From positions 124,001 through 188,000 of the forward strand of contig NZ_BCNX01000006.1 in the NCBI RefSeq assembly GCF_001571405.1: a stretch of DNA of 64,000 nucleotides, in the 5' to 3' direction. The number at the start of each line of letters is the position of its first letter. The stretch's first letter is position 1. The stretch is from Methanoculleus thermophilus (lineage in GTDB: Archaea; Halobacteriota; Methanomicrobia; Methanomicrobiales; Methanoculleaceae). A program made the translations under genes and the position numbers. Below the pieces are notes generated by a model. It made no database searches and was not told the origin of the DNA. It saw only the letters and a program-made list of their open reading frames with translations. Positions 33,680 through 40,856 of the stretch are shown one piece after another.

Positions 33680-33716
33680 TCACTTTCACCCCGCGCACGG
33701 CCTATGGTTAAATAAT
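33680..33716 (+). promoter_or_regulatory. shared upstream element (copy A) with TATA box
   Basis: TCACTTTCACCCCGC at 33680-33694 is identical to 36862-36876. After two bases ACGGCCTA follows, then the TATA box GGTTAAATAATGCC. Copy B has the same order, ACGGCTA and then AATGCC. Transcription would start near 33736, ahead of the DNA methyltransferase gene and at the start of a small ORF. Confidence 0.55.
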
Positions 33717-33736
33717 GCCCTCACCCCGTCTCATGT

Positions 33737-33892
33737 ATGGAGCGATCGACATTTTCCACATTCGCCTGCCTCGCGGAGCGGGCTGCCCGGTATCCGACCA
33801 TCATCCGGCGGAGCCAGATGCGTAAGACTGTGTTCCTCGCCGCGACCACCCTGCCGTCGCACCCTTCTTGCAAGGCGAGGGGCTATACTTAA
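33737..33892 (+). CDS. possible small leaderless ORF (51 residues)
   Basis: ATG 33737 opens 51 codons ending at TAA 33892. The product is basic and Arg/Thr-rich, with no recognised domain; a segment reads ERAARYPTIIRRSQMRK. Support comes only from position: the TATA box at about 33707-33714 predicts transcription starting at about this ATG, so the message would be leaderless. Another ATG at 33733 in a second frame gives only about 30 codons. It could equally be untranslated leader of the methyltransferase gene, which starts 40 bases after its stop. Confidence 0.25.
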   Translation: MERSTFSTFACLAERAARYPTIIRRSQMRKTVFLAATTLPSHPSCKARGYT

Positions 33893-33932
33893 CATCTCCC
33901 GGGGTATTGGCACCTTCCGGTGATCGGACCGG

Positions 33933-34838
33933 ATGCGGCGGAAAGGCATACCGAACCGGAATGAGAAAGGGAAGGTCCGGCAGGGCACGGGGAACGCCAG
34001 GCATACCGTCCAGACCCCTGAGCCTCCTGCCATCCGGCAGTTCACGAACAGCGTCATCTGCGGCGACGCGATGGCGGTGCTCCCGGCGATCCCGGACCGG
34101 AGCATCGACCTCATCATAACATCCCCGCCCTACAACTTCGGCCACCACTACGCAAACGATTCCATGAGCGACACCCGCGAGTGGAACGACTACTTCCGGA
34201 AACTCGGCGCGGTCTGGAGCGAGTGTTACCGCATACTCAAGCCAGGAGGTCGGATCGCGATCAATATCCAGCCGCTCTTCTCCGACTACGTCCCGACACA
34301 CCATGTCATCTCATCGCAACTCCTGGGTCTAGGGTTTCTCTGGAAGGCGGAGATCCTCTGGGAGAAGAACAACTACAATGCCCGGTACACCGCGTGGGGG
34401 AGCTGGAAGTCGCCGTCGATGCCCTACCTGAAGTATACCTGGGAGTTTATCGAGGTCTTTGCGAAGGAGACGCAGAAGAAGGCCGGGAAGAAAGAGATGA
34501 TCGATATCACCGGCGACGAGTTCAAGGAGTGGGTCTTTGCCCGGTGGGTCTTTCCGGCGGAGATCCGGATGCGTGACTACCAGCACCCGGCGATGTTCCC
34601 GGAGGAACTCCCGAGAAGGCTGATCAAACTCTTCTCCTACCGGGGAGACCTGGTGCTCGACCCCTTCAACGGTGCGGGGACGACGACGCTTGTTGCCAAC
34701 CGGCTCAACCGGCGCTTCATCGGGATCGATATCTCCCCGGAGTACTGCAAGACCGCCATGGCCCGACTCTTGGGGGAGGAGGCAAAGGACGGCACCCGTG
34801 CTCCTCCTCGCTACATCGTCTGGGACCGACTCTCCTGA
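33933..34838 (+). CDS. solitary DNA methyltransferase (beta class, N4-C or N6-A)
   Basis: A 301-residue amino-methyltransferase. ITSPPYNFG holds the catalytic SPPY (64-67), and LDPFNGAGTTTLVA (243-251 and on) the SAM-binding motif I. The order catalytic motif first, SAM motif last, marks the beta class. SPPY is typical of N4-cytosine enzymes but also occurs in N6-adenine ones. No restriction gene is adjacent, so it is an orphan enzyme that may serve regulation or protection. It overlaps the convergent lipoprotein gene by 28 bases. The first 35 residues are basic and low in complexity, so the true start could be later. Confidence 0.92.
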   Translation: MRRKGIPNRNEKGKVRQGTGNARHTVQTPEPPAIRQFTNSVICGDAMAVLPAIPDRSIDLIITSPPYNFGHHYANDSMSDTREWNDYFRKLGAVWSECYRILKPGGRIAINIQPLFSDYVPTHHVISSQLLGLGFLWKAEILWEKNNYNARYTAWGSWKSPSMPYLKYTWEFIEVFAKETQKKAGKKEMIDITGDEFKEWVFARWVFPAEIRMRDYQHPAMFPEELPRRLIKLFSYRGDLVLDPFNGAGTTTLVANRLNRRFIGIDISPEYCKTAMARLLGEEAKDGTRAPPRYIVWDRLS

Positions 34839-35959
34839 ACTGGATGCGCATCAGAGTTCCCTTCGAGGTATGCCCGGGCATGGAGGTATGATCCGGGCCG
34901 GTCGTGGGTGTGGGTGACAAGATGATTGTGGAGGTTGATGACAGCCTCCGACTCCTCAAGCAGGGCGTTGTACTTCTCTACCGCATCATTGTACTCGTGG
35001 GCCTTCTCGTTGTATCTCCAGACGAGGCGGTTGTACTCCTGAAACTTCCCCGACTGAGCGAGTTCTGCCAGCCGTGCGTCGAGGGACTTGAGGGTCTCTC
35101 TCTGAACCTCCAGATCGGAGAAGCACTCCACGAGTTCTGAAGAGAGGTCTTCTGCCCGGTCGCGTGAGGCGGCAAGAGCGCGCTCGATCATCTCGATCTC
35201 GCCTGACGCCGTATAGATCCTCTGACCGTCCCCGATCGGGATGACCAGCGGGTCTGTGGTGAGGATGGTCCCGTCCGCAAGTTTGTCGGGTGGAATCCCG
35301 ACGTAACTTGCGTTCGTGGTCTCGATGTAGGCGTAGCCGGTCTCGCGGTAGAGGTTCCCGTTGCTCTTTACACCGACGGCCATGTGTGCCTCGTCCTCAA
35401 AGTAGAAGAGCGCAACAGCATACCCCTCCCTGGCCAGGAGCCCGGCAAGGAGGAGGCTTTTATCGTCGCAGTCGCCCAATCCGTCGACATACGTCTCGAT
35501 CGGGAACTTCGGCTCAACGATGGAGGTATCGGTGCTGTAGGGTATGGACTGCACGAAGGCGGTGACGAGCTCGAGATACCGGTCGCCATCGAGCCCTTTG
35601 CGGTCCCGGATCTCGCGGAAGGCGGCAAGGAGGTCGGCATAGAAGGGTTCCAGGCAGGGATCGTCGATGAACGCCCGGTAGTAGATGGGGACCCACTCCT
35701 CTTTTGAGAGATTTATTGAGAGGTAGAGTTTCCGGTCGGCCTCTTTTGCGCCGGCATAGACCGCAGGGTCAGGATCTATTCCGATCCTCTCCTCTCCGTC
35801 CTCGAAAGGGAATGTGTAGACCGGCACCCGATCGAGGCTCGCCCCCTCGATCGGCGTGATTGCCGGCGGGACGATCGGGGGCTGCAGGAAGCCTCCCAGG
35901 CATCCGGCCCCGAGAACTGCGACGACGATGATGGGTATGATGAGGGCCTGTTTCCACAT
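34811..35959 (-). CDS. lipid-anchored transglutaminase-like protein
   Basis: A 382-residue exported protein. The N terminus is a lipoprotein signal with lipobox LGAGC (Cys20). The middle holds a transglutaminase/cysteine-protease-like core: GLGDCDDKS with Cys164, then EAHMAVGV with His192, and a later Asp. From about 255 to 345 lies a long charged coiled coil (repeats rich in Leu, Glu and Lys). It may cross-link or cut surface proteins, or be an inactive binding domain; Cys and His are both present. It begins five bases after the HAD gene stop, so they are probably cotranscribed. Confidence 0.85.
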   Translation of the reverse strand: MWKQALIIPIIVVAVLGAGCLGGFLQPPIVPPAITPIEGASLDRVPVYTFPFEDGEERIGIDPDPAVYAGAKEADRKLYLSINLSKEEWVPIYYRAFIDDPCLEPFYADLLAAFREIRDRKGLDGDRYLELVTAFVQSIPYSTDTSIVEPKFPIETYVDGLGDCDDKSLLLAGLLAREGYAVALFYFEDEAHMAVGVKSNGNLYRETGYAYIETTNASYVGIPPDKLADGTILTTDPLVIPIGDGQRIYTASGEIEMIERALAASRDRAEDLSSELVECFSDLEVQRETLKSLDARLAELAQSGKFQEYNRLVWRYNEKAHEYNDAVEKYNALLEESEAVINLHNHLVTHTHDRPGSYLHARAYLEGNSDAHPVQESRSQTM

Positions 35960-35964
35960 GGTAT

Positions 35965-36729
35965 TCAGAGGTATTCAGGGAGATTTGCAAGCGAGTCGAT
36001 GATAAGATCCGGCGTGATCCCCGACCGCAAGACTGCCTCTTCTCGATATTTGCCGGTCCTCGTCAGGATGCCCTGCATCCCGCAGGCCTGGGCGCCGCCG
36101 ACATCGGTGACGATATCGTCGCCGACCATCGCCGCCTCGTCCGGGCGCGCCCCGATCTCCCGGAGCGCCCGGAGGAAGAACGCCGGGGAAGGTTTTCCGA
36201 TCACCTCGGCCTTCTTTTCGGTGGCATACTCGAGCGCGACGACGAAGGGGCCCGCCGAGAGCATCAGCCCGTCCGGTCCCATCCAGTAGCGGTCTTTCTC
36301 GAGCGCGACGAGGTCCGCCCCGTTCATGAGCAGGCGAAACGCCCGGTTCATCGAGGCGTAGGTGATCCCGTCGGCCGCATCGGCGACCACGACCGCATCC
36401 GCTCCCTCCTCTACTGCCACAATCCCGGCCTCCTCAAAGTCCGTCCGGGCATCCGGGGTGGTGAGGAGGAAGCACCTGGCACGATCGCTCTCCTTGAGGT
36501 GCGCCGCGGCGGCCACCGGGGCGGTGATGATCCAGGACTCCGGGATGGCGTAACCGAGGTTCTGCAGCCGCCGGGCAACCGAACGGCGGGAGCGGCGAGT
36601 GGTGTTTGAGACGAACCGATAGGGTATGCCCCGCCGGTCAAGTTCCCGGAGCGCCTGGTCTGCTCCGTCGATGGCCCGGTCGCCGACGTAGAGGACGCCG
36701 TCGATGTCGATCAGGACTGCACTGACCAT
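35965..36729 (-). CDS. HAD-superfamily IIA phosphatase (NagD/LHPP-like)
   Basis: A 254-residue protein with all four HAD motifs: DIDGVLYVG (Asp nucleophile), VSNTTRRS (motif II), the lysine in GKPSPAFF, and GDDIVTDVGGA. The cap type is IIA, as in NagD and LHPP. Such enzymes remove phosphate from sugar or nucleotide phosphates; the substrate is unknown. A TATA box, GTATAAATATCC, lies at about 36748-36760 on the minus strand. It precedes the transglutaminase-like lipoprotein gene on the same message. Confidence 0.9.
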   Translation of the reverse strand: MVSAVLIDIDGVLYVGDRAIDGADQALRELDRRGIPYRFVSNTTRRSRRSVARRLQNLGYAIPESWIITAPVAAAAHLKESDRARCFLLTTPDARTDFEEAGIVAVEEGADAVVVADAADGITYASMNRAFRLLMNGADLVALEKDRYWMGPDGLMLSAGPFVVALEYATEKKAEVIGKPSPAFFLRALREIGARPDEAAMVGDDIVTDVGGAQACGMQGILTRTGKYREEAVLRSGITPDLIIDSLANLPEYL

Positions 36730-36861
36730 ACTGCTCTCTGTTGTCCGGATGGATATTTATACAGTGTGTGCGGGCACGACACTTCATCCGCAGTCTTACA
36801 AAAATCTCAGGGGTTTTCACGCCCCGTCCCTCTTTTGGCGTGAGATGATCCGGGGAGTCAT

Positions 36862-36894
36862 TCACTTTCACCCCGCAACGGCTACCTTGAATGC
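36862..36894 (+). promoter_or_regulatory. shared upstream element (copy B)
   Basis: TCACTTTCACCCCGC at 36862-36876 is identical to copy A. One base later ACGGCTA follows, then ACCTTGAATGCC at the place of the TATA box. A start of transcription about 25 bases on would fall just before the exonuclease ATG at 36923. GGGG at 36853-36856 can also pair with the CCCC inside the element. Confidence 0.55.
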
Positions 36895-36922: not shown

Positions 36923-38002
36923 ATGGTTCACCCCTTTGATCAGGCGGGTAAGTTGTGGCGTGTCCGGATTGACCGGGCCGGGGAGTATGAGGTCGTCGAC
37001 GAGAGCGAAAAGCACCTTCCCGGCCCATGGTCGACGTTCATCCGCCGCTCCGACTACGATGATGCCCGAAGGCTTCAAAACACCCTTGTTGCCGAGTACC
37101 GGGGGCGGAGATTTGAGGATGCTTTCCGCGGCCGGGAAGTTGTCTGCTCCGCCGGGAGGTGCTGTCTCCTCGAATCTCGCAGAACCATGGACCTCGATGC
37201 CCGCGACCCGGACCGGGCGACTGAGGCAATCCTATCGGATCTCACATTGGTCCACGGCATCGGCAGGGTGACCGAGCGGCGATTGAAGAGGCGGGGTTAT
37301 CAGACGATCGCCGATCTCGTCCGGCACCCCTGCTACCGCCAGGAAGCCTCAAAGGTCCTGGAACTCGTGGCGGAGGGGAATACCCGTGACCTCATGGAGC
37401 AGATCGGGCGGCGACACCGCCGAAGCGACCCGCTCCTCCTTGAGGCCTGCCGGTTCCATGCCCCGGAGGACTTTCTCTTCCTGGATATCGAGACGCTGGG
37501 GCTCTTCTCTCGCCCGATCATCCTCATCGGTCTTGCCCGGGCCCGGGGAGGATCGATAACCATCAGCCAGTACCTGCTTAGATCAGTTGACGAGGAGGAG
37601 GCGGCGCTCACCTCCGTCCTCCCCGAACTGGAAACGGAGAGCACGGTCCTCGTCACCTTCAACGGCCGGGCGTTCGACCTCCCCTATATCCGTGAGCGGT
37701 TAGGATACTACGGCATCTTGGCTGACCTTGATATGCCGCATGTTGACGTCCTCCACTTCGCACGACGCCGCTGGGGTGAGACGCTATCTTCCTGCCGGCT
37801 CTCTGCGCTCGAGGCGGAGATCCTCGGTCTTGCCCGAGAGAATGATCTCCCGGGAGCGCTGGTGCCGGAGTTCTACGACACCTACCAGCGCACCGGAAAT
37901 CCCGGTCCGCTCATCCCGATCGTGGAGCATAACCGTCAGGATCTCGTCTCGCTTGTCCGGCTCTTTGCGCTTCTCCGGGGGGATGGCAACGACTGTGCGT
38001 GA
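36923..38002 (+). CDS. DEDD-family 3'-5' exonuclease with HhH motif (MrfB/YprB-like)
   Basis: A 359-residue protein. The C-terminal part has the DEDD exonuclease residues: D188 and E190 in FLDIETLGL, D252 in VTFNGRAFDLPYI, and H336/D340 in EHNRQD. Residues 106-135 (LVHGIGRVTERRLKRRG and on) form a helix-hairpin-helix, which often binds DNA. The N-terminal 90 residues are not recognised. The RNase-H-like core resembles the YprB/MrfB group. Its coding end overlaps the next gene, a YprA/MrfA-type helicase, by 20 bases. In Bacillus subtilis these two proteins form a mitomycin-lesion repair pathway. A similar task here is inferred. Confidence 0.88.
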   Translation: MVHPFDQAGKLWRVRIDRAGEYEVVDESEKHLPGPWSTFIRRSDYDDARRLQNTLVAEYRGRRFEDAFRGREVVCSAGRCCLLESRRTMDLDARDPDRATEAILSDLTLVHGIGRVTERRLKRRGYQTIADLVRHPCYRQEASKVLELVAEGNTRDLMEQIGRRHRRSDPLLLEACRFHAPEDFLFLDIETLGLFSRPIILIGLARARGGSITISQYLLRSVDEEEAALTSVLPELETESTVLVTFNGRAFDLPYIRERLGYYGILADLDMPHVDVLHFARRRWGETLSSCRLSALEAEILGLARENDLPGALVPEFYDTYQRTGNPGPLIPIVEHNRQDLVSLVRLFALLRGDGNDCA

Positions 38003-40232
38003 ATTCCTCGACCTGCTCGCGGCGGACCCAAACGTCGTGCATACCAGGACCACGCCGCCCCGGGCGGCCCGGTACGGAATCCTCTTCCGTCCCCTCCCGG
38101 AAGGCCTCCGTACCTACTGCGAGGGAAGAGGGATCCGGCTTTATACCCACCAGGCTGCGGCGATCGAGCATCTGCGCGCCGGAGAGAACGTCATCATCAC
38201 CACGCCGACCGCGAGCGGAAAGACGCTCGCTTTCCTCCTCCCGGTCTTCGAGCGTCTGGCGCTCGACCCCGCCGCGACCGCCCTCTTCCTCTACCCGACA
38301 AAGGCGCTCGCAAACGATCAGGTAAAGACCATCCGGGAGATAGAGGACGTTTCGGGAATACGGGTGGATGCGGCCATCTACGACGGCGATACGCCCGCCG
38401 GAAAGCGGCCGGCGATCCGGGATCGGTCCCGGATCATCCTATCAAACCCCCACGAACTCCACCAGGTCCTCGCCTGGCACATGAAGTGGAGCCGTTTTTT
38501 CCGAAACCTCCGGTTCGTGGTGGTCGACGAGGCGCATCGCTATCGCGGGGTTGCGGGATCTCATATGGCCATGCTCCTCCGCCGCCTTGCCCGCATTGCG
38601 GAGTACTACGGTGCCCGGCCGCAGTTCGTCCTCTCCTCTGCCACCCTTGCAAACCCGACCGAGTTCGCCGCCCGCCTGACCGGCGAGGAGGCGATCCTTA
38701 TCGAGGATGACGGATCGCCGGCGGGTGAAAAGACGTTCATCCTCTACAACCCCTCTGTTGGAGACGGCGGACGATCGGTCCATTCTGTGACGAAGGACCT
38801 CCTCCTCGCCTCGGTGGAGAGCGGGTGCCGGACACTCTGTTTCACCCTCACCCGGAGGCTTGCCGAAGTGATCGCGGCCCGGTCCCGGGAGGTTCCAGGG
38901 ATAAGCGCCTACCGGGCCGGCTACCTCCCGACCGTCCGGCGTGCGATCGAGGACGCCGCGAAGGACGGCAGCCTTCGCGGCGTCGTGACGACGAACGCCC
39001 TCGAACTCGGGATCGATATCGGGTCGCTTGACGGTGTCATCATATCGGGGTATCCGGGGACGATGATCTCCTTCCGGCAGCAGGCGGGACGGGCTGGACG
39101 CCGTTTGGGGGAGTCTTTTGCCGTCCTGGTCGGGTTCGAGAACCCTCTCGACCAGTATTTCATGCGCCACCCGGAGGAGTTCTTCTCCCGGCCCTGCGAG
39201 CACGCCGTCGTGGACACGGAGAACCCCTACATCCTCTCGGGCCATCTCCTCTGTGCGGCATCGGAACTCCCGGTCGACCCAAAGCGCGATGCCCGCTGGT
39301 TCGGTCCCGATATCGCGGAGATGCTTGCTGCGCTCGAGCGTGTCTGCCTGCTCCGGAAGGCTTCGCGGGGCTGGATCTATGCCGGGCGGAGACGGGCGGC
39401 GGAGATGGTCGGGCTTGATTCCGTTACCTCCGATACCTTCCGGGTGATGTATGAGGGCAGGCTGCTCGAGACGATGGATCGTGAGCAGGCCTTCCGGGAG
39501 GCTCACCCGGGTGCAATCCTCCTCCATCGCGGGGAGACCTACGTGGTGACCGAGATGGACCTTGAGCAGCGCACGATTCAGGTGGAGGAGACCGATACCG
39601 ATACCTACACCCAGCCCCTCGTCACCACCGATGTTGCGGTCGTGCAGGAACTCCGGCGCCGCGACATCGGCGGCGTGGGAGTCTCGTTTGGGGACGTTAC
39701 AGTCAGTCGGCAGGTCATCGGGTACACGGTGCGGCACTATGATCGGGTCGTGAGCCACCACCGGCTGGACCTCCCGCCGCTCTCCCTCGCGACAAAGGCC
39801 TTCTGGCTCACCATACCGGACCGGACGTTGGATACGATCACCGCTAAAGGGTTGGACGTTGCCGGTGGGCTGCACGGTGCGGAGCATGCCCTGATCGCAG
39901 TCATGCCCTACCATGTCGTCTGCGACCGCCGCGATATCGGCGGTCTTTCGACCCCTCTTCACCCTGCAACCGGTGCTCCGACGATCTTCGTCTACGACGG
40001 CTATGAGGGCGGGATCGGGCTTGCCGAGAAGGCCTCCACTCTCCTCCCCGCGATCGCCGGGATGACGCACGAACTGGTCCGCGACTGCTCGTGCACCGCA
40101 GGGTGTCCGGCATGCATCTACTCGCCACAGTGCGGGAACCAGAACCAGCCCCTCGATAAAGAGGCGGCCATTCTTATCCTCGACGACCTCGCCCGACGAC
40201 TTGCGACGGGTACTTCCACTCCGGACGCCTGA
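37983..40232 (+). CDS. DEAD/DEAH helicase with C-terminal Cys cluster (MrfA/YprA-like)
   Basis: A 749-residue superfamily 2 helicase. TTPTASGKT (73-81) is motif I, VVDEAHRYRG motif II, LSSATLAN motif III, ALELGIDIG motif V and QQAGRAGR motif VI. The C terminus carries C702, C704, C708, C711 and C717 in a DUF1998-like metal-binding domain, as in MrfA and the yeast-type Hrq1 group. Such helicases track 3'-5' on DNA and help remove bulky or cross-linked lesions. ATG 37983 lies inside the last 20 bases of the exonuclease gene. An open frame from 37728 only mirrors that gene. Confidence 0.93.
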   Translation: MATTVREFLDLLAADPNVVHTRTTPPRAARYGILFRPLPEGLRTYCEGRGIRLYTHQAAAIEHLRAGENVIITTPTASGKTLAFLLPVFERLALDPAATALFLYPTKALANDQVKTIREIEDVSGIRVDAAIYDGDTPAGKRPAIRDRSRIILSNPHELHQVLAWHMKWSRFFRNLRFVVVDEAHRYRGVAGSHMAMLLRRLARIAEYYGARPQFVLSSATLANPTEFAARLTGEEAILIEDDGSPAGEKTFILYNPSVGDGGRSVHSVTKDLLLASVESGCRTLCFTLTRRLAEVIAARSREVPGISAYRAGYLPTVRRAIEDAAKDGSLRGVVTTNALELGIDIGSLDGVIISGYPGTMISFRQQAGRAGRRLGESFAVLVGFENPLDQYFMRHPEEFFSRPCEHAVVDTENPYILSGHLLCAASELPVDPKRDARWFGPDIAEMLAALERVCLLRKASRGWIYAGRRRAAEMVGLDSVTSDTFRVMYEGRLLETMDREQAFREAHPGAILLHRGETYVVTEMDLEQRTIQVEETDTDTYTQPLVTTDVAVVQELRRRDIGGVGVSFGDVTVSRQVIGYTVRHYDRVVSHHRLDLPPLSLATKAFWLTIPDRTLDTITAKGLDVAGGLHGAEHALIAVMPYHVVCDRRDIGGLSTPLHPATGAPTIFVYDGYEGGIGLAEKASTLLPAIAGMTHELVRDCSCTAGCPACIYSPQCGNQNQPLDKEAAILILDDLARRLATGTSTPDA

Positions 40233-40286: not shown

Positions 40287-40856
40287 ATGAATATTGTTCT
40301 GGTCCCTATCGGGGCGGTCGATCCGGCCGAGTTGCGGATGCTTGTGAACCCCTTACGAGCAGTCTTCTCCCGGGACGTCGTGATCGGCGAGGGGGTGCCC
40401 CTCCCAAAAGCCGCACGAAATGATCCCCGCAGTCAGCATGACGCGGAGATGGTGCTTGAGTCCCTTGCCCTCTCCGTGGAGATGGAGCGTCACGATCGGG
40501 TGCTGGGAGTCACGAACGCCGATCTCTACCTTCCCGGAATGAACTTCGTCTTCGGGATCGCAAGGGAGCGATGGGCAATAATATCCCTGCACCGGCTCAG
40601 AGAGTCGTTTTACGGTCTTCCTGATGATCCGGACCTCTTTCGCCGCCGGGCTGTTGTGGAGGCCGTGCATGAGCTGGGACACACCTTCGGGCTTGCTCAC
40701 TGCAAACGATCCCGGTGCGTCATGTTCTTCTCGAACACCGTCGCCGAGACCGATCGGAAAGGGCCGGAGTTCTGCATGAGGTGTCGTCTCCATCTTGCTT
40801 CCGAAGGGCTCGGCGGTCGGGCTCTTGCCTGGGGAGGCGGCCCGGTCGAATCGTGA
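40287..40856 (+). CDS. amzA: archaemetzincin zinc protease
   Basis: A 189-residue metzincin. HELGHTFGLAH (128-138) supplies the catalytic Glu129 and three zinc His. The family's second zinc site is formed by C139, C144, C163 and C166 in the CKRSRCVMFFSN and CMRC segments. Archaemetzincins are soluble zinc proteases found in archaea and vertebrates; their natural substrates are unknown. The start at 40287 (MNIVLVPIG) is the family form. It follows the helicase by 54 bases on the same strand. Confidence 0.95.
   Translation: MNIVLVPIGAVDPAELRMLVNPLRAVFSRDVVIGEGVPLPKAARNDPRSQHDAEMVLESLALSVEMERHDRVLGVTNADLYLPGMNFVFGIARERWAIISLHRLRESFYGLPDDPDLFRRRAVVEAVHELGHTFGLAHCKRSRCVMFFSNTVAETDRKGPEFCMRCRLHLASEGLGGRALAWGGGPVES

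Follow-up and report, generated by a model that had tools for sequence, protein, structure and literature searches.

Two copies of a conserved archaeal promoter element as probable operators of a DNA-damage regulon with an Orc1-2-type candidate regulator

We suggest that two copies of a short promoter element in Methanoculleus thermophilus are operators of a DNA-damage (SOS-like) regulon, and that a non-initiator protein of the Orc1-2 type is its most likely regulator. We put the probability of this reading at about three in four. The element is conserved throughout the phylum, it lies in a fixed geometry in the promoters of a recurring set of genes, and in one clade it has switched in concert. 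Induction of the regulon by damage in Methanoculleus is very likely, and activation is probable rather than repression.

The window, that is, the whole 64-kb stretch of DNA analysed, contains TCACTTTCACCCCGC at 33680-33694 and 36862-36876, both on the plus strand. The initial annotation had reported these two intergenic copies, and exact matching confirms their positions and strand. No further copy had been seen by eye, and none is present in the window with up to two mismatches; three matches with three mismatches are at the chance level. Exact copies are expected at 1.4e-4 per 64 kb. The window is rich in repeated 15-mers (57 versus 3-19 in Markov sequence). Hence, the duplication of TCACTTTCACCCCGC alone is unremarkable and the evidence lies in its conservation elsewhere. 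Copy 1 is followed by GC-ACGGC-C-TATGG-TTAAATA and copy 2 by A-ACGGC-TACC-TTGAAT (Table 1). Thus, ACGGC indeed trails both copies, as first described, but the AATGCC reported with it is not conserved at other sites.

Both copies had been placed before plus-strand genes acting on DNA. At copy 2 the ATG of the exonuclease-like gene is located 60 bp past the C of CACTTT. However, the first gene behind copy 1 is an unannotated ORF of 51 aa, and the methyltransferase, starting 252 bp behind the copy, comes second. Within Methanoculleus the dN/dS of the small ORF is about 0.29 in frame, while in the shifted frames non-synonymous change exceeds synonymous. Its homologues are found at the same distance from the element in at least 14 loci of four families, most of them lacking the methyltransferase behind, and the latter follows three of about 13 orthologous copy-1 promoters. 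The methyltransferase, a variable passenger that differs between strains, is probably the second gene of the copy-1 unit. In a Methanocorpusculum-like clade the element is followed first by a homologue of the 51-aa ORF and then by the orthologue of the window exonuclease gene, which brings the products of both window sites into one apparent operon there. A Pfam search with the 51-aa protein gave no match, and its structure predicted alone is mostly helical, with low confidence. We also note a family of small proteins (45-57 aa, consensus A.RA..Y..I.RR[SN]Q..K) comprising the window ORF and those of four further loci, and directly following the element in the loci examined.

Orthologues of the exonuclease stand behind the original element at two loci and behind its switched form, described below, at three. 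The domain matches of the adjacent helicase begin only at residue 103 of the longest ORF, so the gene itself probably begins near 38,000. On spacing only, the archaemetzincin gene may belong to the same transcription unit as the exonuclease and helicase.

Table 1. Features at the two element copies; positions refer to the window.
Feature	Position	Strand	Basis
Element copy 1, TCACTTTCACCCCGC-GC-ACGGC	33680..33701	+	Exact match; orthologous promoters with the same layout
TATA-like box TTAAATA, copy 1	33708..33714	+	27 bp past C of CACTTT; sequence
Unannotated 51-aa ORF (MERSTFSTFACLAERAARYPTIIRRSQMRK...)	33737..33892	+	ATG 56 bp past C of CACTTT
N6/N4 DNA methyltransferase	33933..34838	+	PF01555, E=3.6e-44
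Element copy 2, TCACTTTCACCCCGC-A-ACGGC	36862..36882	+	Exact match
RNase-H-fold exonuclease-like gene	36923..38002	+	PF13482, E=1.1e-34
MrfA/Hrq1-type DNA helicase, longest ORF	37728..40232	+	PF00270, PF09369 MZB, PF22982 WHD_HRQ1; TIGR03817
Archaemetzincin	40287..40856	+	NF033823, above cut-off

The whole genome (2.22 Mb) contains four exact copies of the 14-mer: the two of the window, one at radA and one at a gene for a 125-aa hypothetical protein. Near copies precede the genes of an XPD/Rad3-like helicase, of an accessory Orc1/Cdc6 protein and of a TIGR03916 DNA modification/repair radical SAM protein, as well as dinB, identified by sequence. The genome scan suggested at the outset finds, together with the RNase-H/MrfA pair, a set of genes with a functional pattern downstream. 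A weaker site, CACTTTCAGACCGC, is located upstream of a gene for a YdjM-family membrane protein; in E. coli, YdjM is under the control of LexA. The stricter degenerate pattern YACTTTCRCNCC yields nine sites in this genome versus one for the control; two of the nine, antisense within genes, were discarded as chance matches.

In relatives the element is abundant. CACTTTCACCCCGC occurs 125 times in 40 genomes of the family versus 0 for the reversed control, and at the level of the order 72 of the 150 genomes, from 22 of 35 genera, have TTCACTTTCACCCC; its control gives 2 matches altogether. Among 124 distinct sites the identifiable genes are radA (25), TnpB-like genes (21), Orc1-2 paralogs (14), promoters of the copy-1 type (13) and rSAM_link_UDG (9), with smaller groups, among them RPA, exonuclease and Rpn-like genes. 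Counted from the C of CACTTT, the TATA-like sequence at these sites has its mode at +26, and the start codons of orc1-2, rSAM and many TnpB genes and of the small ORF fall mostly between +51 and +60. A geometry as constant as this points to transcripts that are almost leaderless and to a protein that binds upstream of the core promoter. Of the activator or repressor proposed initially, the place upstream of the TATA box favours the activator, and the repressor less so. Beyond the order the 14-mer becomes scarcer (30 matches versus 6 for the control). The sites retrieved there, mostly in Halobacteria-like genomes, include some before genes of RPA (5), Hef (3), topoisomerase VI B (2), Lhr (2) and RadA (1). 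The core that persists at radA promoters in many families is ACTTTC.

Several further groups of genes stand behind the element. At least six TnpB lineages with less than 50% mutual identity carry it before the start. A family of 125-180 aa proteins starting with GY[IL]Q follows it directly in several families, including the 125-aa hypothetical gene of M. thermophilus (locus L004, positions 1085-1459); the one member searched has no Pfam match. Of the short proteins behind the element at four loci, one matches the Rad51 family weakly (E=0.0013), and these are possibly RecA-fold damage-response paralogs. In one family genes of Rpn/YhgA-like transposase-nucleases are found behind the element. The reading of one target as the small subunit of DNA polymerase D was rejected, as the gene encodes RPA.

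The switch is seen in the Methanocorpusculum-like clade, so called from the composition of its family. The radA promoter of several of its genomes has CATTATCGCACCGCGCGG in place of the usual element, and ATTATCGCACCGC occurs 7-13 times per genome in six genomes (loci L407-L436), with zero for the control. The switched element CATTATCGCACC precedes the same orthologues, namely radA, RPA, rSAM and the exonuclease unit, whereas the sister genome G059 keeps CACTTTCACACCGCGCGG at radA. Unless a single dedicated protein binds them, it is difficult to see how so many operators would change in concert. In G064, the single switched genome examined in this respect, the otherwise invariant tyrosine of the Orc1-2 recognition helix is replaced by isoleucine and the wing is changed from GRGRTR to GEGRKR; in G059 the tyrosine is kept. 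In a structure predicted for a Methanoculleus homologue, the changed residues map to the recognition helix and wing of an Orc1 fold. It is suggestive, though from one genome, that this change would be tied to the switched element.

We consider an Orc1-2-type protein a candidate for the regulator that reads the element, with odds slightly in its favour. Besides an Orc1-1-like initiator, Methanomicrobiales possess a conserved Orc1-2-like core protein and from zero to three accessory Orc1-2-like paralogs. Of the three Orc1-family proteins in M. thermophilus itself, two belong to a second clade and one is Orc1-1-like, scoring 294 bits to 2qby_A. A search for relatives with its own Orc1-2 returned close Methanomicrobiales only, the nearest named being Methanoculleus species. 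The element stands before most accessory genes, and the core Orc1-2 promoters show no clear copy of it. The Walker B motif of the core protein is LDDANYL (residues 141-147), with D where Orc1-2 of S. islandicus has E154.

In genomes of other orders ACTTTC is found at radA in 20 of 25 with Orc1-2 and in 1 of 16 without; with one borderline genome counted as negative it is 20/25 versus 1/17 (Fisher p=3.4e-6). One genome (G173) has the motif without Orc1-2, and G175, G185 and G199 have Orc1-2 without the motif; of the five Orc1-2-positive genomes that miss it, two are halophiles in which the motif differs by one base. The association is weakened by shared ancestry and few independent losses: a phylogenetic pairs test offers 4-6 independent pairs, on average 2.2 concordant versus 0.1 discordant, and the sign test is not significant.

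This leaves some room for the same repair regulon under another regulator, such as a winged-helix or MarR/TrmB-type protein or a TFB paralog, with Orc1-2 being a target and a co-inherited gene. The accessory Orc1-2 genes are indeed targets, the association corrected for phylogeny is not significant, and our profiling of regulators covered Orc1-2 only. However, ACTTTC matches the hexamer bound by Orc1-2 in Sulfolobus (PMC9738581), it ranks first of all 4096 hexamers in separating radA promoters by the presence of Orc1-2, and the recognition helix is changed in a genome with the switched element. We regard another regulator as the less likely reading. It is less likely still that the regulon responds to the state of replication or the cell cycle, with Orc1-2, RPA, TopoVI and RadA raised at active or stalled forks: RPA, Top6B and Orc1/Cdc6-like genes are among the targets, but so are the repair genes dinB, rSAM_link_UDG, XPD-like, MrfA and Hef, and the Halobacterium genes with the motif were found through UV-B induction. 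The Orc1-family genes and the repeated 15-mers of the window might point to an origin-recognition box or to a mere dispersed repeat, with no role in promoters and no functional pattern. This is ruled out for practical purposes: many unrelated genes have the element in one orientation and at a constant distance from TATA and start codon, and the gene set, the concerted switch before orthologous genes and the control counts, with the reversed control absent in the family, speak against it too.

We propose for the damage regulon the following scheme. A leaderless promoter would be activated by a protein that binds (T)TCACTTTCACCCCGC-n-ACGGC some 19 bp before TATA. Copy 1 would drive the 51-aa protein and, in some strains, the DNA methyltransferase; copy 2 would drive the RNase-H-type exonuclease with the MrfA/Hrq1 helicase. 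The genes of radA, dinB, RPA, XPD-like, rSAM_link_UDG and accessory Orc1-2 proteins would be under the same control, and the regulator would be, as in Sulfolobus, a non-initiator Orc1/Cdc6 protein of the Orc1-2 type. More tentatively, with about even odds, an Orc1-2-type regulator reading ACTTTC upstream of TATA could be an ancestral archaeal damage system of Halobacteriota and Sulfolobales, which in Methanomicrobiales might control a full SOS-like regulon with a new small protein and TnpB transposon genes, and whose binding specificity might have switched together with all operators in the Methanocorpusculum-like clade.

Switching-on of DNA repair in euryarchaea is poorly understood, and the UV motif of 2008 came without a regulator. 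The analysis supplies a conserved damage-associated small protein, a regulon with predicted members and a candidate regulator, and a natural operator switch that is testable by sequence swaps. If the proposal is true, the Orc1-2 response of crenarchaea and the UV motif of haloarchaea are parts of one system. It also suggests that TnpB transposons tap the damage response of the host. We consider as new the breadth of the regulon in Methanomicrobiales, the extended consensus, the conserved protein of about 51 aa, the connection to TnpB genes, the switch of operators and the link to Orc1-2. A literature search that covered few subscription papers returned no report of the consensus, regulon, small protein, TnpB connection, switch or Orc1-2 link, nor any later paper on the UV-B motif.

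The element itself is not new, since it largely matches the UV-B motif of Halobacterium. Boubriak et al. (2008) described TTTCACTTTCA before four UV-B-induced genes of Halobacterium NRC-1 and proposed it as a regulator site; similar motifs were noted at radA of other haloarchaea and of Methanospirillum hungatei, and a near match at npa, a UV-B-induced transposase gene (PMC2556686). The window copies agree with this 11-mer at 9/11 and 10/11 positions, and some relatives match it fully. Common to both are the CACTTTCA core, the place upstream of TATA and about 50 bp before the start (here +56 and +60), and the targets radA and top6B; the near match at npa parallels the TnpB sites. In Methanomicrobiales, however, the element is extended to ...CACCCCGC-n-ACGGC, the window copies are without the full upstream TTTCA repeat, the target genes are many more and a candidate regulator is proposed. 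With the targets in the genome and this link to UV-B (PMC2556686), a shared element of the DNA-damage type, the idea put forward initially, is the best reading of the two copies.

In Sulfolobus the UV response is tied to ACTTTC-type hexamers upstream of BRE/TATA (PMC5817253); the hexamer ANTTTC is literally ACTTTC in upsE. The two systems share a non-palindromic ACTTTC upstream of TATA, targets of the orc1-2 type and the theme of DNA damage. In Sulfolobales the hexamer occupies positions -44 to -39 relative to the start site and abuts BRE on its upstream side (PMC5817253). The gap between hexamer and TATA is about 19 bp here versus roughly 8 there, that is, about one helical turn further. Here a C-rich extension is conserved, Orc1-2 binding is predicted, and the targets are recombination and repair genes, whereas those of Sulfolobus include ups pili, tfb3 and cell-division genes.

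The regulon resembles the bacterial LexA SOS regulon in its logic and in the genes that it comprises: a recombinase, dinB, helicases and small induced proteins, and also a YdjM-family gene, at a weak site here. However, LexA is a repressor bound at a palindromic operator, whereas the present element is non-palindromic and lies upstream of TATA, consistent with an activator, and the gene set is archaeal.
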